The notes beneath the pieces were generated by a model. The model did no database searches. It had not been told where the DNA came from and saw only the letters and a program-made list of their open reading frames with translations. A DNA stretch of 64,000 nucleotides from Agarivorans litoreus (GTDB lineage: Bacteria; Pseudomonadota; Gammaproteobacteria; Enterobacterales; Celerinatantimonadaceae): contig NZ_BLPI01000001.1 of the NCBI RefSeq assembly GCF_019649015.1, positions 2,249,001 through 2,313,000 of the forward strand, in the 5' to 3' direction. Position numbers and translations under genes: made by a program. The first letter of the stretch is position 1, and each line of letters opens with the position of its first letter. Of the stretch, positions 4,983 to 54,827 are shown one piece after another.

Positions 4983-5000
4983 GTGGGAATACAGTCCCAC
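4983..5000 (+). promoter_or_regulatory. HipB-type operator, distal copy
   Basis: GTGGGAATACAGTCCCAC is an inverted repeat with perfect 6-bp arms (GTGGGA / TCCCAC) around ATACAG. It matches the two promoter-proximal copies (GGGAATATAGTCC), so it is a third binding site for the same dimeric repressor, about 50 bases further upstream. Confidence 0.7.
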
Positions 5001-5033
5001 ATTTTTAGTGTTAGAGTTGTTTGAGTATCATGC

Positions 5034-5079
5034 TTGGACTATATTCCCATTAATGACTAAATAATGGGAATATAGTCCC
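5034..5079 (+). promoter_or_regulatory. hipBA promoter flanked by two inverted operators
   Basis: A perfect 17-bp inverted repeat (GGACTATATTCCCATTA at 5036-5052, its complement at 5062-5078) surrounds a 9-nt spacer. Each arm is itself an operator of the form GGGA-N6-TCC. A plausible sigma70 pair is TTGGAC (5034) and TAAATA (5058), 18 bases apart, so RNA polymerase and repressor would compete. The antitoxin ATG follows 14 bases after the second arm. This arrangement fits autoregulation by the HipB-like antitoxin, as in E. coli hipBA, although the site sequence differs. Confidence 0.72.
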
Positions 5080-5092
5080 TTAGGTTGGTGGT

Positions 5093-5398
5093 ATGGCTAA
5101 GCGTGATTTACACAATGTACTGTTTCCAAAGCAGCGCAAAATTCTGACGCATTTTGGTGAGGACTTGCTGTTGGCCATGAAGCGACGAGGTTTTACAAAA
5201 AAGCTGCTGTGTGAACGTACTGGCTTTGATCATAAAACCGTGAACAAAGTCTTCGCAGGTGATCCGGGCGTTGCCATAGGCACTTACTTAAAAGTGATGG
5301 CCGTTCTAGGCATGGAAAGCAACTTTGCAGAAATGGCCGCTCATGATGAAGTGGGTATCAAGCTGCAAAACATAAAATTGCTGGAAGGTTCAAGATGA
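5093..5398 (+). CDS. HipB-like XRE antitoxin
   Basis: A 101-residue helix-turn-helix protein. The HTH core spans about residues 20-60 (GEDLLLAMKRRGFTKKLLCERTGFDHKTVNKVFAGDP). The gene directly precedes and overlaps a HipA-like kinase by four bases (ATGA), the usual antitoxin-first order. Three copies of a palindrome lie immediately upstream. Known role of the family: neutralise the HipA kinase by complex formation and repress the operon, more strongly with toxin bound. It is only distantly related to E. coli HipB. The N terminus (MAKRDLHNVLFPKQRKIL) resembles solitary phage-type regulators, so the assignment rests largely on context. Confidence 0.85.
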   Translation: MAKRDLHNVLFPKQRKILTHFGEDLLLAMKRRGFTKKLLCERTGFDHKTVNKVFAGDPGVAIGTYLKVMAVLGMESNFAEMAAHDEVGIKLQNIKLLEGSR

Positions 5399-8339: not shown

Positions 8340-10061
8340 ATGAAAATTGAAGATGCGTTAAGCAAATCAAGAACATGGATAGATCAACTTGTTGGTAACG
8401 AGTTGCAATATATAACAGGAAGAAATACTTCAATTATTACTCGTGTTGATTGGGAAGGTGAGGGGAAATTATTTGTTGGGCGCGGCGACAAAGAAATATC
8501 TATTAATTTTAAACGAGTTGAAGATGCAATTAAAATTTTAATAAATGGCCAAATAGTTCATTTTGACACCATTCTTCGATCGGGTAGCAATGACAGAACT
8601 GTCATTGAGACAATTATTGCGAATTTCCCACCTGTGGGATTTATGCTGCCAAATAAAGGAAGAAATAAACGTAAAAACAAAGTATTGCAGTGGTTAAATA
8701 AAGAAATTCATCCACTTGGTAATATTATGGATATAAGTGCAGATGAGTTCGCCGAACTGTCCTTAAGTATTGGTGAAATAAAAAAAGCACAGGCCTTATC
8801 CAAACCCTTCCTCCTTCTAGCCGGCATCTCTGGTACAGGTAAAACCCGCTTTGTGCGTGAGCAAGCAAAAACTTCAATGCAGTTTGCTGAAACTTATTGT
8901 TTAACCTCAGTGCGCCCCGACTGGCATGAGCCGAGTGATTTGCTTGGTTATATTTCTCGCCTCGCAAAAGACGGCGAAGCTGAATACATCACTACCGATG
9001 TATTGCAATTTATCGCCAAAGCATGGCGTGCTATTGCTGATAGCGGCTTAACCATTGAGGTGCAAGAGAGCGAAGACCAAGGTAAGTGTTTAGTGGTAAT
9101 AGGTGAACGTGATGCACTTGAGCGGATACTTCCTTTCTGGTTGTGTTTGGATGAAATGAACCTTGCCCCTGTTGAGCAGTATTTTGCTGATTATTTGTCG
9201 GTGCTGGAAACCCGCGAATGGCGTTGGACAGACGATAGCTTTACCTACAGCAGTGATGCGTTATTAAAACCTGCCACCATTAATGAAGTCGCTGATATAG
9301 AAAAGCTACGCGGAGCGCTAGGCTTTGATGATGCGAAATACAACGAGCTGTGGGCACATATTTGCCAATATGGTTTAGGTATTCCGTTTAACCTGCTAGT
9401 AGCGGGCACAGTGAATATGGATGAAACCACTCATGGCTTTTCACGCAAAGTGATTGACCGAGCGCTGAGCTTTGATTTTGGTGCGTTTTTCCCAAATAAC
9501 TTTGATGAGTTTGCTGATTTTGGAACTCCAACAAGTTGCAATAAGCGCCTTAGCTATCCTATTTGGTCAAACGCCAGCAAAATAGATTTAGCCAATACCT
9601 TTGATGCGGATGGCTCTAAAACAATTGCGTTTTTATCGGCAGTCAACACAGTGCTAAAAAATACACCGTTTGAGTTGGCGTTTCGTGCGCTCAATGAGCT
9701 GCTCCTCGCAGTTGCCAGCAGCCAACCACAAGATGAACTGACCCTAAAAGCCGTATGGGACGACTTTATGATGTGCAAGGTTCTGCCGCGTATAGAAGGC
9801 GATACCGATAAACTGACTACATCAAATCGCAAGGATTTGCTGGAAGAACTTAGCGCTGAGCTTTCAGACCAGTTAGCCCCTATTTGGCAAGCAGAACAAG
9901 CCGATAAGAATCAACGCCCTGACTTATATCGCGAGAAAATCGTGGCCGATGGTGCTACTGATGAGGAGAAAGTACTTCGTATACCTTGCCGTTCAAAAGC
10001 TAAGTTGAAGTGGATGATCGATCGATTAGACAGCGCCACCTTTACCAGTTTCTGGCCTTAA
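8340..10061 (+). CDS. McrB-like AAA+ ATPase subunit of restriction complex
   Basis: A 573-residue AAA+ motor. Walker A GISGTGKTRF lies at about 162-171, Walker B with the McrB hallmark WLCLDEMNLAPVEQYF at about 268-283, and a sensor segment GTVNMDETTHGFSRKVIDRA at about 357-376. McrB proteins use GTP or ATP to translocate DNA and drive a McrC nuclease. Residues 1 to about 147 form a separate N-terminal domain, expected to read the DNA target; this part is AT-rich like the methyltransferase, whereas DNA from about 8780 onward is near 50% GC. It is adjacent to the methyltransferase (stop then ATG) and 85 bases before the nuclease gene. In LlaJI-type systems the equivalent protein pairs with a PD-(D/E)XK partner and cognate C5 methylases. 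Confidence 0.9.
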   Translation: MKIEDALSKSRTWIDQLVGNELQYITGRNTSIITRVDWEGEGKLFVGRGDKEISINFKRVEDAIKILINGQIVHFDTILRSGSNDRTVIETIIANFPPVGFMLPNKGRNKRKNKVLQWLNKEIHPLGNIMDISADEFAELSLSIGEIKKAQALSKPFLLLAGISGTGKTRFVREQAKTSMQFAETYCLTSVRPDWHEPSDLLGYISRLAKDGEAEYITTDVLQFIAKAWRAIADSGLTIEVQESEDQGKCLVVIGERDALERILPFWLCLDEMNLAPVEQYFADYLSVLETREWRWTDDSFTYSSDALLKPATINEVADIEKLRGALGFDDAKYNELWAHICQYGLGIPFNLLVAGTVNMDETTHGFSRKVIDRALSFDFGAFFPNNFDEFADFGTPTSCNKRLSYPIWSNASKIDLANTFDADGSKTIAFLSAVNTVLKNTPFELAFRALNELLLAVASSQPQDELTLKAVWDDFMMCKVLPRIEGDTDKLTTSNRKDLLEELSAELSDQLAPIWQAEQADKNQRPDLYREKIVADGATDEEKVLRIPCRSKAKLKWMIDRLDSATFTSFWP

Positions 10062-10146
10062 TGAGTCGGTGCTGTTTGATGCCTTCTGCAATGAATGCAA
10101 CCCATAAGCAGAACCCGTACAGTGATGGTGTAAGGAGTGCTAGGGA

Positions 10147-12765
10147 ATGCCTGAGTTAATACGATTACAAACCCCCGACTTTGAGTTTTCTGTCTGGGCG
10201 AATGATATTAGCCAGCGGTTGAGCGTGTACCAGAATACAATGGCGCACAGGGCGAGCGCTAATGATGTACAACCTAGCTACGAATTGCGCTTTGCGCCTG
10301 CGGCGCAGCTGAGCAATGCTATTGAGCCGCAAGGGCTTGTTGCAGATGGTTTGGTACCAAGTGGGTTAGATGAAAGTGACTTAGCCGACAACGACCTTGT
10401 TGCCAATAGCTTAGCGAAACACGCTGAGCTGACATTAAATTCCCCGCTGTTTTTTGAGAATACTCAGTACCAGTTTGAGTGGGTCTTTTTTAGTGAAGTC
10501 ACTAATGCGCGGTTAACCCATCGCAGCCAAAGTGTGAATGAGGCATTTCGTTTTGCCCCCGAAGTACAAACCGCAAGGGGCGTGGTGCCTGCACGTTTAA
10601 CCGGCACCATTAATACCGGCAATGATGTGGGCTGGTTGCGTTTACCGCTCACTTTTGAACTTAATGGCAAAACACAGACTCAGCACATTGCCTTTGAAGT
10701 GCTACCAACTAAAATGGCCCTGCACCAAGACTTGCCCGCCATGTATCAAGCGATTGATACTGTATTCCCTCATTGGCGTTTTAGTTTGGTCGAAAAAACC
10801 GAGCAAAATGTTGCGCGAAGTACAAAGCGTATTCACTTTCCTTTAGTGTGGCTTGAAAACTTTAGAGAGCTAAGAAAGCGTTTTGAAAGTGGCTTAAAGG
10901 TGGTATGTGCCGCACCGCATAGCCGTTTGCAGCCGACGGTTGCCAATATTAAAGCGGCCAAATTAAAAGGCCGTTTGCCTCATAAGTTAGCCGAGCAAGT
11001 AAAGCAAGACTTTGCGAATGGCCAGTACGATAAACGCTACGCGGTCGAAAAAAAGCAACTGAGTGTCGACACCCCAGAAAACCGCTTTATCAAAATGGCG
11101 GTGAGTAAAAGCAAGCGGCAATTAGCGGAGTTTGAACAAAAGCTAAGGCAAAGTAACCAAGCACTAGAGCGCCCACGTTTATCAGAATCCTTCATTGATG
11201 AAGTACACAGTTGGCAGCCGCCGCTACAAAAAGTATTAGGCCAAAGTTTTTTAAAAGAGGTGGGTGCATACACAGGGTTAAGTCGTGAGTCTTTAGTGCT
11301 ACAGCAAAAAACCGGTTACAGCGCGGTGTATCGCGTTTGGCAGGAGCTGAAATTTTATTTAGATGTGTTTGGCAATCAGTCGAGCATTTCAATGAAGTCA
11401 GTGGCTGAGATTTATGAAATCTGGTGTTTTTTGTGTTTGAAACAGATTTTAGAGCAGGATCTCGGCTTTAAGTTGGTGGAAAATGGTGCAGCAGAGTTAA
11501 AGCAGAATGACTTTTTCGAGTACAGCTTTAAAGAAGATGGCATGCGCGGTGCGTTTCGATTTAAGCGTGCTGATGGAGTGACGGCAAGATTAGCTCATGA
11601 ACCGATTTTTAATAAAGCGGGTAAAATACGCTCGTATCTAGTGAGCCAAAAGCCAGATATTGTGTTGGAAGTGACACTGCCTAAAAGCGCCGATTTAACA
11701 AAAGCAGACTCATCAGAAGAAAAGCAGTTTATTTGGCTGTTTGATGCCAAGTATCGCATTAAAACCGAGAAAAACCGCTTTGATGACTGCAATGAAGATA
11801 TCGAAAGTACCGATTACGTACCAGACGATGCCATCAATCAGATGCATCGTTATCGGGACGCTTTGATCCGCCTGTCTGAGTATCCATCCAGCTCAACGGC
11901 TGGCCAACCCACCAAAAAAAGCCGCCCAGTTTTTGGTGCGTTTGCTTTATATCCTGGTTTTTTTGACCAAGCCACAACACCAAACCCCTACGCAACCGCA
12001 ATAGAAGAAGTGGGTATTGGCGCATTTGCCCTCTTACCTAGTCAAAATAAGCCTAGCCAAAATGAGCCTAGTCAAAACGAACTTAGTCAAACTGATCCTA
12101 CCCAGACTAAGAGCAGTTATTCCGGCCATCAATGGTTGCTAGAGTTCTTGCAAGCGCAAATTGGCACAGCTCCGAACGCACAAACAGGGCAAAACAATGA
12201 AGCCATGTATCCCGTGGCTGGCATGGCGGAAAAGCTCTACGTGCAAGAAGCCGCACGCATACCGTATTACGGCATGCGCCAAATGCTGTACCCAGACCTT
12301 ACGTTTACTGCCGCGTTGGGGCCTCAAAAAGGCCGTAATAAACGCTATCTGGAAAACTTCGAAAATGGTGTTGCTCAGTGGTATCACATAAAAGTAGCGG
12401 CAATTAAACAGCTCGAAAATAATGTTGGGTCACATCATATTGCTGAGGAGATCCGCTATTTAGCGTTAGCAACGCCATCAACTCAGCATGTGGGCACTAA
12501 AGAGATAGCAAAGGTTTGGCCTGTGAAACGGGTTGCGATTTTGCCACGTAACTCCATCACTGCCGTACAGGCTGGAAAGGAAGTTGATTCACCAGAGCCC
12601 TATTACCTTTTTCAATTAGGTAAGCCATTGGCTCTCCAGGTGGCGGTGACTCATGTTCCGCTACGAAATTTTAGTCATTCGATGAAACTCACAACCTTGA
12701 CTCGCTTAGAGAGCGTGACAAAGTTTGTTGAAGTAGATGAAGTGTACCGAGAGGCGATGGTGTGA
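10147..12765 (+). CDS. DUF2357/PD-(D/E)XK nuclease, McrC-like partner
   Basis: An 872-residue protein with an N-terminal DUF2357-like region (about 1-330, ending in VDTPENRFIKMAV, a conserved signature of this group) and a PD-(D/E)XK nuclease core: KPDIVLEV (Asp about 504) and WLFDAKYRI (Asp about 533, Lys about 535). Both catalytic elements are present. A Q/N/S/P-rich tandem repeat at about residues 631-655 and a C-terminal domain with ALGPQKGRNKRYLENF follow. It is larger than E. coli McrC (about 350 residues), resembling R2-type subunits of LlaJI-like systems. Together with the upstream ATPase it should cut unmodified DNA. It is the last gene of the operon; the HepT gene downstream is on the other strand. 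Confidence 0.85.
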   Translation: MPELIRLQTPDFEFSVWANDISQRLSVYQNTMAHRASANDVQPSYELRFAPAAQLSNAIEPQGLVADGLVPSGLDESDLADNDLVANSLAKHAELTLNSPLFFENTQYQFEWVFFSEVTNARLTHRSQSVNEAFRFAPEVQTARGVVPARLTGTINTGNDVGWLRLPLTFELNGKTQTQHIAFEVLPTKMALHQDLPAMYQAIDTVFPHWRFSLVEKTEQNVARSTKRIHFPLVWLENFRELRKRFESGLKVVCAAPHSRLQPTVANIKAAKLKGRLPHKLAEQVKQDFANGQYDKRYAVEKKQLSVDTPENRFIKMAVSKSKRQLAEFEQKLRQSNQALERPRLSESFIDEVHSWQPPLQKVLGQSFLKEVGAYTGLSRESLVLQQKTGYSAVYRVWQELKFYLDVFGNQSSISMKSVAEIYEIWCFLCLKQILEQDLGFKLVENGAAELKQNDFFEYSFKEDGMRGAFRFKRADGVTARLAHEPIFNKAGKIRSYLVSQKPDIVLEVTLPKSADLTKADSSEEKQFIWLFDAKYRIKTEKNRFDDCNEDIESTDYVPDDAINQMHRYRDALIRLSEYPSSSTAGQPTKKSRPVFGAFALYPGFFDQATTPNPYATAIEEVGIGAFALLPSQNKPSQNEPSQNELSQTDPTQTKSSYSGHQWLLEFLQAQIGTAPNAQTGQNNEAMYPVAGMAEKLYVQEAARIPYYGMRQMLYPDLTFTAALGPQKGRNKRYLENFENGVAQWYHIKVAAIKQLENNVGSHHIAEEIRYLALATPSTQHVGTKEIAKVWPVKRVAILPRNSITAVQAGKEVDSPEPYYLFQLGKPLALQVAVTHVPLRNFSHSMKLTTLTRLESVTKFVEVDEVYREAMV
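12037..12111 (+). repeat. 15-bp tandem repeat, five units, in the nuclease gene
   Basis: Five consecutive 15-bp units close to CCTAGYCAAAAYGAG encode PSQNK, PSQNE, PSQNE, LSQTD and PTQTK. The multiple-of-three unit allows copy-number change without a frameshift. It forms a flexible linker after the nuclease core. Confidence 0.85.
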
Positions 12766-46621: not shown

Positions 46622-46669
46622 TAAAAAAATTATTATTTGTAGTAAGCGATAATAACCTGGATATGAGAT

Positions 46670-47422
46670 ATGGATATACACCCTACAGCGATTATATCGC
46701 CTAAAGCGACCCTTGGTAATAATGTTACTGTTGGCCCATTTTCGATCGTTCATGATAATGTTGAAATTGCAGATAATGTGGTGATTGAATCTCACTGTGA
46801 ATTGGGTGTTAGAAATCAACGAACGGGTGATAAACCCTTAGTGGTTGGCAGCAATTCTCATATTCGCTCTCATAGTGTTTTGTATGCGGCCTCGAGCTTT
46901 GGAAGTAATTTCGTAACAGGGCATAGGGTTACCATTAGAGAGAACACTTCTGCAGGTAAAAATTTTCAAGTTGGTACCTTAGGCGACATCCAAGGTGATT
47001 GTGTGATAGGAGATTATGTGCGTTTTCATAGTAATGTGCATATTGGTCAACACTCTATTGTCGGCAATTTTGTATGGATCTTCCCTTATGTGGTTTTAAC
47101 CAATGATCCCCATCCCCCAAGTAACGTAATGCAAGGCGTAACTGTAGAAGACTTTGCTGTGATTGCCACTATGAGTGTGATTCTTCCAGGAGTGAAAATC
47201 GCAGGAGGCTGTTTGGTTGCTGCTCACTCTTCGGTTAACCGAAATACTAAAGCGAATACTATTTATGCCGGTTCACCTGCAAAAGCAGTAGGTGAAACGT
47301 CAAAGATTCGTTTAAAAGATGGCTCTAGGAGACCCGCTTACCCTTGGCCAAAGCATTTTAAGCGTGGTTACCCAGAAGAAGCCATTAAAATTTTGGAGAG
47401 TATCGCCAGTGACAATGCCTAA
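46670..47422 (+). CDS. Left-handed beta-helix acyltransferase
   Basis: A 250-residue hexapeptide-repeat enzyme (MDIHPTAIISPKATLGNNVTVGPFSIV...; repeats run to about residue 200) with the loop VLTNDPHPP carrying the catalytic-type His, ending with a helical tail. Such enzymes N- or O-acylate sugar nucleotides. Followed by a MaoC hydratase (8-bp overlap) and FdtA/FdtB homologues, so the likely acceptor is a dTDP-3-amino-3,6-dideoxyhexose. Members of this fold normally use acetyl-CoA; the neighbour hints at a different acyl group. FdtC/QdtC would be the nearest named function, but sequence identity cannot be judged here. Confidence 0.82.
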   Translation: MDIHPTAIISPKATLGNNVTVGPFSIVHDNVEIADNVVIESHCELGVRNQRTGDKPLVVGSNSHIRSHSVLYAASSFGSNFVTGHRVTIRENTSAGKNFQVGTLGDIQGDCVIGDYVRFHSNVHIGQHSIVGNFVWIFPYVVLTNDPHPPSNVMQGVTVEDFAVIATMSVILPGVKIAGGCLVAAHSSVNRNTKANTIYAGSPAKAVGETSKIRLKDGSRRPAYPWPKHFKRGYPEEAIKILESIASDNA

Positions 47423-47852
47423 CCAGCAGCCGACCAAAAAAAAATATACTTTGGAGGAGTTAATCGAAGGGATGAGTGCTGAATTAACTCAAGTTATTGC
47501 GGCAGAGGACACCTTGCAATTCGCTGATTTATCTGGAGATTGTAACCCTGTTCATCTAGATGAAAACTATGCTGCGAACTCAAGATATAAGAAGCGTATA
47601 GCTCATGGTTTGCATGGGGCAAGTTTTTTTTCAGCTCTATTTGGTACTCAATTACCAGGCGAAGGCTGTGTGTACGCATCACAAAATCTGCAGTTTAAGA
47701 GGCCTGTATATGTAGGTGATACGGTTACGGCAAAAGTGACAATTCGTAAGATTGATCGTGTGAAAAAGATTGTGAGTTTTGAAACCAAATGCTTTGTCAA
47801 AAACAAAGTCGTAATTGATGGTTCCGCGGATATTTTTATGCCTCAAAAGTAA
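47415..47852 (+). CDS. MaoC/PhaJ-like (R)-enoyl-CoA hydratase
   Basis: A 145-residue hot-dog protein. The hydratase-2 motif is clear: FADLSGDCNPVHLDENYAANSRYKKRIAHGLHG, giving the catalytic Asp and His of R-specific hydratases. ATG 47415 overlaps the acyltransferase stop by eight bases, so it is part of the sugar operon. An ORF reading from 47319 is only an upstream extension. Known chemistry: hydration of trans-2-enoyl-CoA (e.g. crotonyl-CoA) to (R)-3-hydroxyacyl-CoA. In this setting it plausibly makes the acyl donor for the neighbouring acyltransferase. Confidence 0.88.
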   Translation: MPNQQPTKKKYTLEELIEGMSAELTQVIAAEDTLQFADLSGDCNPVHLDENYAANSRYKKRIAHGLHGASFFSALFGTQLPGEGCVYASQNLQFKRPVYVGDTVTAKVTIRKIDRVKKIVSFETKCFVKNKVVIDGSADIFMPQK

Positions 47853-47902
47853 CCTCATAATAATTTAATTGGAATAAATTACTTAAAAGCAGAGCACTAA
47901 CA

Positions 47903-48307
47903 TTGAGCTTAATAAAAGTACTAAATTTTAAACCTTTAGGCGATGAACGTGGAGATTTAGTTGCTCTAGAGGAACTTGTCGATATTCCTTTTGTTATGAA
48001 GCGAGTTTATTACGTGTTTCGCACGGAGCGAGGAGTATCTCGAGGGTTTCACGCGCATAGAAATCTCAAGCAAGTGGCCGTTTGTGTTACGGGTAGCTGT
48101 GAGTTCGTGCTTGATGACGGAGAAAACCGAGAAACAATTACTTTAGATAGTTCGACAAAAGGTATTTTGATTGAAGGCATCGTTTGGCGTGAAATGCATA
48201 ACTTTTCTGATGACTGTGTCTTAATGGTCATTGCTAGCGAACATTATGATGAAGCTGACTACATCCGTAGTTACGATGATTTTTTAGAGATAGTTAACGC
48301 AGGCTAA
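47903..48307 (+). CDS. dTDP-4-keto-6-deoxyglucose 3,4-ketoisomerase (FdtA/QdtA-like)
   Basis: A 134-residue cupin (WxcM-like), TTG start at 47903. The motif GVSRGFHAHRNLKQVAVCVTGSCEFVLDDG contains the paired His residues of FdtA/QdtA ketoisomerases. It moves the keto group from C4 to C3, giving the substrate of a 3-aminotransferase. The C-4 epimer made (Fuc or Qui series) cannot be decided from sequence by eye. It is followed by the matching aminotransferase. Confidence 0.9.
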   Translation: MSLIKVLNFKPLGDERGDLVALEELVDIPFVMKRVYYVFRTERGVSRGFHAHRNLKQVAVCVTGSCEFVLDDGENRETITLDSSTKGILIEGIVWREMHNFSDDCVLMVIASEHYDEADYIRSYDDFLEIVNAG

Positions 48308-48344
48308 AGTTTTGCCTGTTGATTGCAAAATAATGGTGATTTAA

Positions 48345-49451
48345 GTGGTTGATTTTTTAAACTTGCAGACTGTGAATGCTCAATACGCTGAACAGTTAAA
48401 ACAGGCTTGTGCAAGAGTTATTGATTCCGGCTGGTATTTGCAAGGTAATGAACTCGTTGATTTTGAGAATGCGTTTGCTAATTATTGTGGCTGTAAGCAC
48501 GCTGTTGGTGTTGCAAATGGTTTAGACGCTCTAACTTTAGTGCTAAGAGCTTGGATCGAAATGGGCTGGCTGAAAGAAGGGGACGAAGTAATAGTGCCAG
48601 CTAACACTTATATTGCCTCGGTGTTGGCTATCACAGAAAGTCGTCTTACTCCTGTTTTTGTTGAACCAGACCCTCTCACTTTTAACTTATCACTAGAAAA
48701 TGTATCAGAAGCCATTACTCCTCGTAGCAAGGTAATTATGGCTGTTCATTTGTACGGCCAGTTAGCTCCAATGCCAGAGCTGGTAACATTAGCCAAACAA
48801 CATGATCTTTTAGTGTTAGAAGATTCTGCTCAAGCTCATGGCGCTATGGTCGATGACAAAAAAGCTGGTGCTTGGGGGGATGCTAGTGGGTTTAGCTTTT
48901 ATCCTGGTAAAAACTTGGGAGCATTGGGTGATGGTGGCGCTGTTACTACTAATAATGATGAGTTAGCCAATGTATTGAGGGCGCTACGAAACTATGGCTC
49001 CCATCAAAAGTACCTGAATAAATATAAAGGAATGAATAGTCGCTTAGATGAAATACAAGCAGCAATGTTAAGTGTTAAGTTGGCTCATCTTGACGATGAA
49101 ATTGCAGCTAGGCGCAGTGTAGCAAGTTACTATCGTGAGCATATAGAAAACCCATTGGTCACCTTACCTGTTTGTGATGATGAGTCCTCGCATGTGTGGC
49201 ATTTATTTGTGATTCGTTGCGATAATAGGGAGCGGTTACAGGCTCACTTAGCGAGCAAAGGGGTTCAAAGTTTGATTCATTACCCAACTCCTCCTCATCA
49301 ACAAGATGCTTATGCGGAGTTTAATCACCTGTCTTTTCCTTTAACCGAATCTATTCATCAGCAGGTGTTGTCGTTACCAATGGGAGCAACTCTATCTCGA
49401 GACGATTTGAAATTGGTAGTAAATGCAGTAAACAGCTTTTCTTTAATTTAA
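48345..49451 (+). CDS. DegT/DnrJ-type sugar 3-aminotransferase (FdtB/QdtB-like)
   Basis: A 368-residue PLP enzyme, GTG start. The Schiff-base Lys is in [17 protein letters not shown], the PLP-phosphate segment is [11 protein letters not shown] and the C-terminal [10 protein letters not shown]...HLFVIR layout is conserved. It should transfer an amino group to C3 of dTDP-3-keto-6-deoxyhexose, giving Fuc3N or Qui3N. RmlA and RmlB, needed upstream, are not in the window. Confidence 0.92.
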
Positions 49452-49493
49452 GAATAAGTGCATCTCTTTTTTATTCGGTAGGTTATATCAGCT

Positions 49494-50420
49494 TTGGAAA
49501 AACGAATTAAAAAAATATCAATTATTACATTAACTTATAATAATTGGCGTTTACTTGAACAGGCATTTTTATCATTGAGTACTCAAGAGTTACCGAAAGG
49601 TGTCTTTATAGAGTACTTTGTTGTAGATGATGGCAGTATCGACTTTAATGTCAATGCTATTGAGACTATGGCAGAACAGTATGGCATCGATAAAAAGTAT
49701 ACATTTAGTATCAAACAAAATTCTGAGAATATAGGTACTGTGGCAAGCTTTAATCGGGCAATAAAAAGCAGTAATGGTGATCTCATCATTCCACTGGCTG
49801 GTGACGATAGTCTTGCTAACGATACGGTGATAAAAGATATTACTAACTACTTTGATTTTAATGATGCACTCTTACTAACGGGCCTCCGGATTCCTGTTGT
49901 TGATGGTGTGCCGTATAAAGAAAAAGTGATGCCAGAATGTAAATATCATTATATGTTTGAGCAAAGCAACCAAGCTTCACTTTATAAGCAGTTGTGTTTA
50001 AAAAATAATATTATTTCAGGTGCGTCGACTTATTATCACCGTGATGTATTTAATATTGTTGGAATGTTTGATGAATCGTATCGATTAATGGAAGATTTCC
50101 CGTTTTATGTAAGCTCGATTTCTAAAGGAATTAAAATACATTTACTCAAAAAGCCTACACTTCTGTATAGTACTCATGGCCTTAGCAATCAGAGCACCGT
50201 CAACCCTTTACTTCAGAAAGATCATGTTCGACTGATGAAAAACATAATAAGCCAGCGTGACTTTAGTTATTATGAACTAAGATGTTTATATTTCAATGAG
50301 GTGCTCGATAGCTTTGAACGTAAGTCTCTGTTTAATATGATTAAATATATAGATTGCTTACTACTTAGGAGGTATGGATCCCTAAAAAAATCGATAATAA
50401 AAAGAGTCGTCTCTAAATAG
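49494..50420 (+). CDS. GT2 glycosyltransferase
   Basis: A 308-residue GT-A enzyme, TTG start at 49494 with TAGG about ten bases upstream. N-terminal ISIITLTYNNWRLLEQAFLSL, first Asp in VVDDGSIDFN, donor motif PLAGDDSLANDT, and a later acid-rich base region LMEDFPFYV. Very AT-rich (12 of 60 bases GC in 49501-49560). It likely transfers the deoxyaminosugar or a partner sugar to an O-chain or outer core. Its stop touches the 3' end of the next (minus) gene. Confidence 0.85.
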   Translation: MEKRIKKISIITLTYNNWRLLEQAFLSLSTQELPKGVFIEYFVVDDGSIDFNVNAIETMAEQYGIDKKYTFSIKQNSENIGTVASFNRAIKSSNGDLIIPLAGDDSLANDTVIKDITNYFDFNDALLLTGLRIPVVDGVPYKEKVMPECKYHYMFEQSNQASLYKQLCLKNNIISGASTYYHRDVFNIVGMFDESYRLMEDFPFYVSSISKGIKIHLLKKPTLLYSTHGLSNQSTVNPLLQKDHVRLMKNIISQRDFSYYELRCLYFNEVLDSFERKSLFNMIKYIDCLLLRRYGSLKKSIIKRVVSK

Positions 50421-51230
50421 TTATTTATATTTTTTATGAGAAGAGGAAAATGACTCTAAACGTTTACGTAAACTGTAAATAATACTTCTATTAAATAAAG
50501 TGTTTAGCCAACTTATGTTGGTGATGATAAGCTTGGTACAAGTACTTCTTATATACTTGTTGCTTAGAGCCTTAGCGTACTTATTTAATAATTCTTTTTT
50601 GCTCACTTCAAAACTTTTATTAATGTTCCCACCACTATTATGTAGTAAATGGAAGTCAATTACATAAGATCTTAAGCCTAATATTTCAGCAATAATACAC
50701 ATGTCTGTTCCGTATAGGTGAAAACCTGATAGGTCTTTAGAAATAGATAGTGCGGATTCTTTTTTTACAATTATAAAATTTTCATCCAAGCTTTTAACTT
50801 GTGCAGGGAAGTTTCCAACATTAATATTTTCACCATGCGGATCGCTAATACGCATGGCATAGTGTTTAAAGTCAATATATCCAGCATTACCGCACAAGCC
50901 CCAATTGGGATCTATTTGGTCTAGCTCTCTCAATTCGCTTTCAAGTTTTTCTTTATCATCAAAGTTTAAAAGAATATCTTGGTGACAAAGAATAATGTAA
51001 TTAGCATCGGAGTGAGTAAGAAACTTCCTAATTGCTTGATAGGCATCTAATTTATTACTTTTACTATTATCAGCATAAATGAATTGCGTATTTTCTTCAG
51101 AAAAGCCAACCGATGCAAAAGACTTTAACATGCCCTGGTATTCGGAGAGGTCGGTAACTAGGGTGCATACTGCAAATTGGTAGTTATGCTTAATTTGGTC
51201 AATTTCTTTAGCGTTCACTGGATTACTCAT
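50421..51230 (-). CDS. Glycosyltransferase-like protein, AT-rich
   Basis: A 269-residue protein with a GT-A-like layout: FAVCTLVTDLSEYQGMLKSF, the segment YADNSKSNKLDAYQAIRKF, then CHQDILLNFDD replacing DxD, and FHLYGTDMCIIAEILG. ATG 51230 (MSNPVNAKEID) is preferred over a TTG six codons earlier. It belongs to a group of surface-polysaccharide transferases that is poorly defined; acceptor and donor are unknown. It forms a minus-strand run with the two GT2 genes behind it. Confidence 0.68.
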   Translation of the reverse strand: MSNPVNAKEIDQIKHNYQFAVCTLVTDLSEYQGMLKSFASVGFSEENTQFIYADNSKSNKLDAYQAIRKFLTHSDANYIILCHQDILLNFDDKEKLESELRELDQIDPNWGLCGNAGYIDFKHYAMRISDPHGENINVGNFPAQVKSLDENFIIVKKESALSISKDLSGFHLYGTDMCIIAEILGLRSYVIDFHLLHNSGGNINKSFEVSKKELLNKYAKALSNKYIRSTCTKLIITNISWLNTLFNRSIIYSLRKRLESFSSSHKKYK

Positions 51231-51258
51231 GACATATTCTGTAGGCAATTATTTAGGT

Positions 51259-52083
51259 TTAATCTAGGTACTTATCTATGCCATTTTCACAATAGTATAG
51301 TTTTTTGGCGGTGTTTTCTTTGATAATTCGAAGATTGATATTAACGTCGGCACGCCGCTCTTGGTGGTGTAAATGATAAACAGGAATCACAAATTTTACG
51401 CTTTTCTCATGAATGCCTTTGCCGTTAAAGCGCCAACCAAGATCGTCATCTTCCCCGCCAACACCAGGTAAGTCTTCGTTGTAACCATTTATTTTCAGCA
51501 TGTCTTTTCTAGCTACGGACCAGTTGCAGCCAACAATGGTTAAATATTTTGCTTGCTGTCTTTTGTGTAATAACTTAGAGCGAAAGCCTATTTCATAGTT
51601 TTTGGTGTGGTCAAATAGAAGCGGAATACCTAACAAGGTATAAATCAAACGATTCTCTAATAGCGAGAGTAGTTGAGGCTTTTTTCTTAGCCAAGCAGAG
51701 ACTACAGGCCCTAAATGCACTCGCCTTCCTGTGCATACTCTGTTTTTCTCGCGCTGCAAAAGGTGCTCTTCTACGTAGTGGCTATGAGGTAGGCAGTCAC
51801 CGTCTAAAAACATAAGGTAATCGCTTTTGGCTGCTGCTATCGCCCTGTTGACTGCTTTGGTTTTACGAAAGCCAATATCTTCTTGGCTTAAATGCTGAAT
51901 TGGAAAATTAAAGCCTTGTTGGCTTAGGTAATTCTGCACAGCTTCACTTTCACAATCTTCAGCAATTATCACTTCAAATTGCTTTTCTGTTTGTTGGCTT
52001 AAAGCGTATAAAATGGCATTTAAAGCCTCAACGTCTTTATAGATTGAAATAATCACACTTGCTTTGGGTGAAGAATGACTCAT
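51259..52083 (-). CDS. GT2 glycosyltransferase
   Basis: A 274-residue GT-A enzyme with ASVIISIYKDVEALNAILYALSQQ, donor site MFLDGDCLPHSHYV, and the late catalytic region GYNEDLPGVGGEDDDLGWRF (ED motif of galactosyl/galactosaminyl-type GT27 C domains). Its start overlaps the stop of the WbbL-like gene by four bases (ATGA). Likely an LPS outer-core or O-chain transferase. Confidence 0.88.
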   Translation of the reverse strand: MSHSSPKASVIISIYKDVEALNAILYALSQQTEKQFEVIIAEDCESEAVQNYLSQQGFNFPIQHLSQEDIGFRKTKAVNRAIAAAKSDYLMFLDGDCLPHSHYVEEHLLQREKNRVCTGRRVHLGPVVSAWLRKKPQLLSLLENRLIYTLLGIPLLFDHTKNYEIGFRSKLLHKRQQAKYLTIVGCNWSVARKDMLKINGYNEDLPGVGGEDDDLGWRFNGKGIHEKSVKFVIPVYHLHHQERRADVNINLRIIKENTAKKLYYCENGIDKYLD

Positions 52084-52985
52084 TGGTTACCTTGCTTATA
52101 TCTTAGTGACTGGTTTTTGGGACAGCCTTTTAATAAGAATTTTAGAAGTGGCCTTCTGTTAGGTTTTGTTATGGCTCGTTTGCACTCTTTCAATAAGTAT
52201 ACACTTTTGATTATGCTTCTTGAGTAAACTGGGTAGTGTTTGCGCAGTAATCGCCAAAATGAAATGTAAAACTCTTTTTCAATCGCGAGATCTCGTTCGG
52301 TGCTTCCACCACCTAAATGAATCACTTTGGCGTTATTTAATAGGTAGATGGGTTTGTTTTTTTTGTGCAAACGAATCGCAAAATCTTCTTCTTCACAGTA
52401 TAGGAAGTACTCAGTATCGTAACCACCTAGCTGTTCAAAATCGCTACGCCTAAAAAACATGGTAGCCCCGCTAACAACCGGTACCGCAATTGGATGTTGG
52501 TAATGCGTTTTACGTTTGGGGTAGTTAGCGGGCTTAAATATTCTTAGTAACGAGGCACCAAGTAGCTTATTGGCAACAGTGGGGATGTATTCAAATGAAG
52601 CTGTACGCTGGTTTTCTTCGCTATAAATTGTGGGGCTGCATAATGCGGTGTCTGGGTGTTGTTCCATGAACAGAAACATTGCATCTAAGCTGCCTGGAAG
52701 AACGCGTGTATCATTGTTTAGAAAAAAAATATATTGCCCCTGACAGTAAGCAAAGCCAGACATATTCCCGCCTGAAAAACCTAGGTTAAACTCATTTTTC
52801 ACTAACTTGGCCCAAGGATAAGCGCCAATATTTGATTCTAGGTTTTGTAAGTCGTCATTGCGGGAGGCATTGTCTACAACAATGGCTTCAAATGATACTG
52901 TTGGCTTACTGTCTGTAATCGATTTTAAGCAATCAAGAGTGTGTGCGCTTGAGTTGTAATTGATCATTACAATCGAAATGTTCAT
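52080..52985 (-). CDS. GT2 glycosyltransferase, WbbL/rhamnosyltransferase-like
   Basis: A 301-residue GT-A enzyme with ISIVMINYNSSAHTLDCLKSI, VVDNASRNDD, NLGFSGGNMSGF, donor motif FLNNDTRVLPG and base region YDTEYFLYCEEEDFAIRL. This set of motifs is typical of WbbL-type rhamnosyltransferases; the sugar cannot be settled from sequence. It is first of a three-gene minus-strand run downstream of the GT4-deacetylase fusion gene. Confidence 0.9.
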   Translation of the reverse strand: MNISIVMINYNSSAHTLDCLKSITDSKPTVSFEAIVVDNASRNDDLQNLESNIGAYPWAKLVKNEFNLGFSGGNMSGFAYCQGQYIFFLNNDTRVLPGSLDAMFLFMEQHPDTALCSPTIYSEENQRTASFEYIPTVANKLLGASLLRIFKPANYPKRKTHYQHPIAVPVVSGATMFFRRSDFEQLGGYDTEYFLYCEEEDFAIRLHKKNKPIYLLNNAKVIHLGGGSTERDLAIEKEFYISFWRLLRKHYPVYSRSIIKSVYLLKECKRAITKPNRRPLLKFLLKGCPKNQSLRYKQGNQ

Positions 52986-53045
52986 ACAGTTAGCCTAAAT
53001 TTAGAAAAGGGATTTTAAGAGAAATAGCTATGGAATTCATTTGCA

Positions 53046-54827
53046 TTAGCGTTTTATACACTTTTTATAAGTATAGTCCCCTTTGATTTTCCGCCACAAT
53101 CCAAACTTGGTGGTGCTGGGGAACATTACAATTCGGCGAATTTGTTGTAGATCTTGGTGCATGCCGATTGGCCCTGAATCAGTAGCTACTGTAAAAGTAT
53201 AGCCAGCTTGCTTGGCCAGCTGTTTGGTTTGTTGATTGTGATTTCCGTAAGGGTAAGCAAAGGTGGTTAGCTCTCTGCCCAATAGGTTTTCTAGCTCAGC
53301 TTTGTTTTGTTCGATCTCTTTTTGCTGCTCATTTTCATCTAGCTCTGCCAGTTTTGGGTGGTTGAGTGTATGTCCACCGATTTCAACATAGCCACTTTGA
53401 TCAATGTCGCGCATAGTTTGATGGCTCATTAGCTCAAAACGTTGGTCTGGTTTAGTGGGGTGCTGAACATCCCAGCGGTTGTGATCGGTGCCTGTTACTG
53501 CGTAAATAACCGCTTTGAACTGATATTTTTTCAGCAGTGGTAATAACAAGTCGAAGTTATCCTGGTAACCATCGTCAAAGGTGAGAATAATGTAGCGCTT
53601 ACCATGATTAAAGCGATGCTCTAAACCGATGCTGGCTAATTCACTAAACGTGATGGGAGTTAAACCCATGCGTTTAATGGTTTGAAAATGTTCTTCTAAA
53701 CGCGCAACGGTAACGTAGGTGCCATAGGCTCCACTTTGGCTATCATCTTGGGTAACTCGGTGATACATGATGATAGGTACTTCACGTTGTTTGGTATAAA
53801 CGTAAGCGCTTTGGTAGGTCTGTAAAAGCTTTTGGCAAACCGCATCTAGGTCGTATTCGGCTTTTATTGCGTTGATTAATTGCTCGCTTACTTGATGTTG
53901 TTCGTTAAAGCTTGCCAATTGCTTTGCTAGTTGTGGGTAATCTATGTCTAACTCTGTTTTTCCGTCATCGGCAACGTCGCCAAAGTTACTAGCAAGGGCT
54001 GCGGGCAGGTTTTCTGTAGTTATGAAGCCGAGTGCTTTGGCTTCACCCACTGCAAATACCGGCTTTTTACATAATAACGCTTCCATGGCCACTCGACCCG
54101 CACCAATAATGAGATCTGCTTGGGCAATGGTAGAGCGAATGTTGTCGCTGTATCCGCAAAATTCCACCTTATCTTCAAACTCAACAAAGCGAGTATCTAC
54201 TTTGCTGCCGCTAATGATTTGTACTTGGTTGGTGTCTAAATCAATGCACTGTTTGAGTAATTGATAAACTAACTCGCCTTTGGGGCCGGTTAATCGACCA
54301 ATGATTTGGATGACAGGTTTACTGTTGTTGGCGGCAGGCAGTGGAAAGAACTGTTGGCTATCAACGCCATTGCGAATCACGCTTACTTGCTCGCTGGGCA
54401 CGCCTAGGTCACGAATAATTTGCTGGGCGATGTTTTCACATACTGCAACAGCGTGATAACCCAGTGCGTGAAACTTTTTGCGCGAGCGGTGCACTGGTTG
54501 GCGACCGTGCACACTGGTCACCATTGGCGTATTGGTTAGTTTGCAGGCGATATAAGAAGACCATCCAGAAGCACGGCTATGTGCATGTACCAGTTGAATT
54601 TTATATCGAAGAATTAAGTAGATAAGATACAATACGTGCCATACTCTGCGAGGCAGGCTACGTTTGTTAAAGCGCAAGCGAAAGTGCTTGCCTTGATGTG
54701 GGCAGCTTAAGGTATCTGATACATAACATACTTGATGACCTCGTTGAGTGAGTCGATCGCCAACTTGGGTGGCGTAGACTTCGGCTCCAGTCACTTCGAG
54801 TTGTGATAGAGCCATCAAAATATTCAT
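53046..54827 (-). CDS. GT4 glycosyltransferase fused to NodB polysaccharide deacetylase
   Basis: A 593-residue two-domain protein. Residues about 1-345 form a GT-B enzyme of GT4 type (VTGAEVYATQVGDRL; IIGRLTGPKGELVYQLL; ADLIIGAGRVAMEALLCKKPVFAVG). Residues about 350-593 form a carbohydrate esterase 4 deacetylase: IILTFDDGYQDNFDLLLPLL (metal Asp pair), IGGHTLNHPKLAEL (His pair) and FAYPYGNHN. Both active sites look complete, so one chain may add an N-acetylhexosamine and remove its acetyl group, giving a free amine in the LPS core. No signal peptide is seen, so it acts in the cytoplasm. Confidence 0.92.
   Translation of the reverse strand: MNILMALSQLEVTGAEVYATQVGDRLTQRGHQVCYVSDTLSCPHQGKHFRLRFNKRSLPRRVWHVLYLIYLILRYKIQLVHAHSRASGWSSYIACKLTNTPMVTSVHGRQPVHRSRKKFHALGYHAVAVCENIAQQIIRDLGVPSEQVSVIRNGVDSQQFFPLPAANNSKPVIQIIGRLTGPKGELVYQLLKQCIDLDTNQVQIISGSKVDTRFVEFEDKVEFCGYSDNIRSTIAQADLIIGAGRVAMEALLCKKPVFAVGEAKALGFITTENLPAALASNFGDVADDGKTELDIDYPQLAKQLASFNEQHQVSEQLINAIKAEYDLDAVCQKLLQTYQSAYVYTKQREVPIIMYHRVTQDDSQSGAYGTYVTVARLEEHFQTIKRMGLTPITFSELASIGLEHRFNHGKRYIILTFDDGYQDNFDLLLPLLKKYQFKAVIYAVTGTDHNRWDVQHPTKPDQRFELMSHQTMRDIDQSGYVEIGGHTLNHPKLAELDENEQQKEIEQNKAELENLLGRELTTFAYPYGNHNQQTKQLAKQAGYTFTVATDSGPIGMHQDLQQIRRIVMFPSTTKFGLWRKIKGDYTYKKCIKR

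Follow-up and report, generated by a model that had tools for sequence, protein, structure and literature searches.

The window, a stretch of 64,000 nucleotides from Agarivorans litoreus, carries a MaoC/PhaJ-type hydratase gene between a gene for a beta-helix acyltransferase and genes for FdtA/FdtB-type enzymes (Table 1). An earlier reading of the sequence alone (hereafter the sequence-only reading) had described this arrangement with its 8-bp overlap, and both the open reading frames and the Pfam assignments agree with it. The hydratase frame is already open from position 47319, and the ATG at 47415, which gives the overlap exactly, is a sensible start.

Table 1. Features of the acyltransferase-hydratase cluster, in positions of the window.
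Feature	Position	Strand	Basis
QdtC-like left-handed beta-helix sugar N-acyltransferase	46670..47422	+	Hexapep 3.4e-21; QdtC 3fs8 1.3e-57
MaoC/PhaJ-type enoyl-CoA hydratase, sugar-locus clade	47415..47852	+	MaoC_dehydratas PF01575 7.1e-22
Overlap of 8 bp, acyltransferase end and hydratase start	47415..47422	+	sequence
FdtA/QdtA-type dTDP-4-keto-6-deoxyglucose 3,4-ketoisomerase	47903..48307	+	FdtA PF05523 1.2e-47
FdtB/QdtB-type DegT aminotransferase	48345..49451	+	PF01041 1.7e-110
GT2 glycosyltransferase; candidate transferase of the acylated sugar	49494..50420	+	PF00535; role inferred
Remainder of the cassette: family-less protein, two GT2-type genes, flanking GT4 and polysaccharide deacetylase gene	50421..54827	-	

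Upstream of the cluster, waaA-like, heptosyltransferase-like, hldD-like and kbl-tdh-like genes make up an LPS-core region. An O-antigen operon is not supported as the setting: the cluster lies in the LPS-core region and is flanked by LPS-core genes. Neither wzx nor wzy was identified among the genes at 46670-54827, one of which encodes a protein without a family. Six sister genomes share tdh at 92-99% identity, but in none of them (0/6) is the acyltransferase-hydratase-FdtA set found downstream of it. Different genes are present there between tdh and the GT4-deacetylase gene, the far flank not being found in one of these genomes. The cluster is an exchangeable cassette of the LPS-core locus; the exchangeable segment extends from 46622 to 53045 of the window, between tdh and the GT4-deacetylase gene.

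All enzymes of the dTDP-Fuc3N/Qui3N pathway (RmlA, RmlB, 3,4-ketoisomerase and aminotransferase) are present in the genome. RmlA and RmlB, which match the E. coli O103 enzymes at 73%, are encoded together with RmlC/RmlD-like genes (rmlBACD) 1.56 Mb away from the cluster, and therefore dTDP-4-keto-6-deoxyglucose should be available. The ketoisomerase scored higher against FdtA (2pa7, 158.7 bits, 7e-46) than against QdtA (4zu7, 123.7 bits), and the best solved relative of the aminotransferase was 5u1z (2.1e-123), ahead of QdtB (3frk, 4e-101). The DxRG motif of the ketoisomerase is also present in the E. coli O5 enzyme, and the FdtA motif, when tried as a discriminator between Fuc3N and Qui3N, did not separate the two. 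With regard to its C4 configuration, the sugar would be either Fuc3N or Qui3N.

The best solved relatives of the hydratase are PhaJ1 (5cpg, 8.9e-27) and PhaJ (1iq6, 4.2e-26). Its structure model, for which the alignments were rebuilt without E. coli rows, reached a pLDDT of 93.3 and matched the fold of PhaJ 1iq6 best (TMt 0.96, rmsd 0.8). The catalytic pair D42/H47 (D31 and H36 in PhaJ) and S73 (PhaJ S62) are all invariant, as are N44, H64 and G65. Although fold and catalytic residues are held in common with PhaJ, an (R)-specific enoyl-CoA hydratase, the window enzyme differs from it in belonging to a separate clade, in its sugar-locus context, in a phenylalanine in place of L65 and in a genome that lacks a PHA synthase. 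A role in PHA supply was rejected because the genome encodes no PhaC, a search for PhaC_N giving zero matches. The residues F72, F76, C85 and Y99 mark the clade; F76, which corresponds to PhaJ L65, occurs in 97% of clade members versus 4% of the hydratases outside. L65 lines the acyl pocket of PhaJ, and F76 may point to a tight pocket with a C4 preference. The genome's second MaoC protein (226 aa, L040:7264-7944) is encoded outside any sugar locus.

A genome-wide scan was carried out with the window hydratase and with a relative from another family (L034), which is flanked by a PglD-like acyltransferase and an aminotransferase. The scan returned 80 loci. Matches above approximately 50% identity were nearly all located in amino-sugar loci, whereas matches of lower identity were not. 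In a tree of 95 rows, for which labels were assigned from identity and neighbouring genes checked later, 40 rows including the window grouped into a single clade on a long stem, supported at 100/100. Directly upstream of the hydratase, 32 of the 38 clade members scanned encode a hexapeptide acyltransferase and one (1/38) a GNAT enzyme; with L059 added, a sugar N-acyltransferase of the QdtC-like, PglD/VioB-like or GNAT kind occupies this position in 34 of the 40 rows, one of which (L174) duplicates another (L042). The remaining six rows comprise L052, with a transposase, L055, a short contig with an aminotransferase fragment upstream, the fusion L064, and L066, L069 and L073. These last three constitute an Arcobacter-type subclade (L066:10001-10396, L069:10001-10396, L073:6862-7260) with a pyridine-nucleotide-disulphide oxidoreductase and a permease as neighbours and no sugar genes. 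Downstream of the clade hydratases mostly DegT genes are found, but also FdtA, NeuB and glycosyltransferases. Gene orders include rmlBA-fdtA-acyltransferase-MaoC-fdtB and PglC-PglD-MaoC-PglE-PglF as well as NeuB loci, so that the partnered pathways are those of Fuc3N/Qui3N, QuiNAc4N, Qui4N and NeuB-type sugars, each of which is a known carrier of 3-hydroxybutanoyl. A Sulfurospirillum locus (L043) contains two hydratase copies, at 4999-5397 and 10001-10408. Outside the clade, related hydratases neighbour riboflavin kinase/FAD synthetase, acyl-CoA dehydrogenase and HAD proteins, and no acyltransferase markers were detected within the fetched flanks.

In L064:6329-7564, hydratase and GNAT domain are fused in one open reading frame (PF13527, 28.4 bits versus a cut-off of 25), within a single MAG contig that also encodes a 4,6-dehydratase-like protein, DegT, NeuB and a UDP-GlcNAc 2-epimerase. 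The pair was rare in samples drawn across the class and across the order, where the acyltransferase occurred also without the hydratase, and another genus of the same order gave no match. Close clade members were absent from the phage and plasmid collections (best matches 35% and 49%), and viral contigs gave matches of only 46%. The sequence-only reading had named co-occurrence of this MaoC group with FdtA/FdtB in other genomes as a check, and this check came out strongly positive. Since the acyltransferase-hydratase pair recurs across several phyla, its adjacency is confirmed to be more than chance.

Hydratases of this type are also found in E. coli, of which 5,426 complete genomes were surveyed by DNA searches of limited sensitivity, and other serogroups may carry the hydratase as well. 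In the O5 cluster, the sugar of which is Qui3NAc, a ketoisomerase, a 154-residue acyltransferase and DegT are encoded without a hydratase. The O49 cluster (6 genomes) contains vioA, a VioB/PglD-like acyltransferase and a hydratase (L183:5133-7324), the latter assigned from its neighbours and 52% identity, outside the tree; from its gene content, this locus predicts a putative 3-hydroxyacyl group on Qui4N. Three genomes carry an rfbA-fdtA-acyltransferase-MaoC-DegT-wzx locus away from galF-gnd. In six, a prophage carries a PglD-like acyltransferase paired with the hydratase immediately after a gene for tail-fibre assembly (L122:8304-9399; L125:8304-9399), a spot where a lysogenic-conversion cassette would sit. 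In two strains (L185:4863-5333, L186:4625-5071), the beta-helix acyltransferase of a ketoisomerase-DegT operon is annotated as incomplete. In the O123/O186 cluster (10 genomes), a clade hydratase follows a GNAT gene, and the published structure of the O123 O-antigen has N-[(S)-3-hydroxybutanoyl]-D-alanyl on Qui4N (PMC10609480, citing Perepelov 2010).

A rival view starts from the acyltransferase of the window. Its closest solved relative is QdtC, which uses acetyl-CoA as donor; QdtC and FdtC, the N-acetyltransferases of dTDP-Qui3N and dTDP-Fuc3N, likewise combine a beta-helix acyltransferase with FdtA/QdtA and FdtB/QdtB, but with an acetyl donor, unlike what is proposed here, and we know of no hydratase partner for them. 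The window enzyme could accordingly be an ordinary N-acetyltransferase making Fuc3NAc or Qui3NAc, with the hydratase incidental or serving something else. QdtC-like acyltransferases without a hydratase do exist (L173, L175, L176, L177), and the fdtACDB and qdtACDB modules of A. baumannii are listed as makers of N-acetyl sugars (PMC9676051). The order of these modules resembles that of the hydratase-bearing loci, and the D gene may be the hydratase, which would conflict with the listed N-acetyl products (PMC9676051); this assignment is suggested only by the way the genes are arranged in related Acinetobacter loci (L048, L050). Nevertheless, we regard simple N-acetylation as improbable, given that the adjacency recurs with three unrelated kinds of acyltransferase and as a fusion, that the hydratase clade is sharply bounded, and that the O123 structure contains 3-hydroxybutanoyl (PMC10609480). 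In an acyltransferase tree, the window enzyme fell among 13 other hydratase-partnered acyltransferases, and residues H148, T167 and Y199 differ between partnered and unpartnered enzymes, the latter numbering five and the tree separating the groups uncleanly. A pocket argument from the acyltransferase model was dropped owing to its poor pLDDT (56.8).

The anthrose operon of Bacillus anthracis is comparable: an enoyl-CoA hydratase gene lies beside an aminotransferase and an acyltransferase gene there, and a 3-hydroxyacyl amino sugar is made. That hydratase belongs to a different family from the window's, and the group on anthrose is 3-hydroxy-3-methylbutyryl. The window hydratase might likewise act on another short enoyl-CoA, for instance converting 3-methylcrotonyl-CoA to the 3-hydroxy-3-methylbutyryl derivative, or yield a mixture whose composition varies with how the cells are grown, as in the Shewanella MR-4 capsule, where Qui4N carries 3-hydroxy-3-methylbutyryl or 3-hydroxybutyryl depending on the medium (PMC3210612). 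This is very unlikely in our view: O123 has the plain 3-hydroxybutanoyl group (PMC10609480), and F76 suggests a tight pocket.

The configuration of the group is less clear than had been assumed. The nearest solved relatives of the hydratase are (R)-hydratases, and the sequence-only reading had predicted (R)-3-hydroxybutyryl-CoA; the O123 group, however, is (S) (PMC10609480). This is at odds with an enzyme that acts simply as an (R)-hydratase, and it is a warning that makes the predicted (R)-specificity doubtful. We tentatively suggest, though with considerable doubt, that the clade holds hot-dog-fold hydratases that give an (S)-3-hydroxybutyryl thioester, the reverse of their (R)-specific relatives, and that serve sugar N-acyltransferases as dedicated, mobile partners, with O123 as the structural witness. 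A reversed hydratase that dehydrates (R)-3-hydroxybutyryl-CoA, another hydratase then giving the (S) form for the transferase, would reconcile the (S) group of O123 (PMC10609480) with an (R)-hydratase fold, but is extremely improbable: no second hydratase is conserved in the hydratase-bearing loci, and both the fusion and the close coupling with the acyltransferase point to direct supply.

The FdhC pathway of E. coli O103 likewise combines rmlBA, fdtA, an acyltransferase and fdtB and makes a 3-hydroxybutanoyl product; unlike the window, its acyltransferase is a GNAT enzyme rather than a hexapeptide protein, and the O103 cluster has no hydratase. The 3-hydroxybutanoyl on its Fuc3N is the (R) form (Liu et al. 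2010, cited in PMC4869667 and PMC3726653). Because O103 makes this sugar without a hydratase, the enzyme is not generally needed for 3-hydroxybutanoyl sugars, and for the same reason we hypothesize that, instead of being essential in every case, it may supply the donor in CoA-bound form or as one particular enantiomer.

Taken together, our preferred reading, to which we assign a probability of roughly 74%, is that RmlA, RmlB, FdtA and FdtB would make dTDP-Fuc3N or dTDP-Qui3N, while, next to the acyltransferase, the hydratase would form 3-hydroxybutyryl-CoA from a short 2-enoyl-CoA (most likely crotonyl-CoA). The acyltransferase would place the 3-hydroxyacyl group on the 3-amino position of the nucleotide sugar, and a glycosyltransferase encoded in the cassette would attach the acylated sugar to the core or outer core of the LPS. 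Reaction direction, substrate, hand-over of the donor, C4 configuration and acyl enantiomer are the steps we infer. A 3-hydroxyacyl sugar, most likely 3-hydroxybutanoyl, made with a dedicated hydratase probably describes the locus and has strong comparative support, short of proof: the co-occurrence, the fusion and O123 speak for this part of the sequence-only reading, and O103 without a hydratase and the closeness of the acyltransferase to QdtC speak against it.

Among the sugars reported to bear 3-hydroxybutanoyl are Fuc3N, Qui3N, QuiNAc4N, Leg and Pse (PMC9676051, PMC3726653). Amino sugars of this kind and their transferases have been described before, as has at least one island dedicated to acyl supply (PMC3927599). 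The viosamine island of P. syringae has its own VioS, VioR and ACP for 3-hydroxybutyryl, plus VioB (PMC3927599). It resembles the window in a dedicated local 3-hydroxybutyryl supply for an amino sugar, but follows a synthase/reductase/ACP route instead of employing a hydratase. Given this island and the enoyl-CoA hydratase of the anthrose operon, the earlier statement that no pathway was known with a dedicated hydratase for this step is too strong as far as dedicated acyl supply is concerned. In the literature searched, which was incomplete, we came across no paper in which MaoC and these sugar names occur together, and no account of a clade of hydratases dedicated to partnering sugar acyltransferases in several classes of sugar.

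For bacterial amino sugars that carry 3-hydroxybutyryl, the transferases are in most cases all that is assigned, and the origin of the group is usually not specified; a dedicated hydratase would be a source of the donor. The conflict between (S) and (R) poses a sharp enzymological question. A simple annotation rule would follow: where a sugar acyltransferase gene is followed by a hydratase of this clade, a 3-hydroxyacyl group would be predicted instead of acetyl. This rule would bear on genome-based serotype and structure prediction, for example for E. coli O49 and the A. baumannii fdtACDB and qdtACDB modules.
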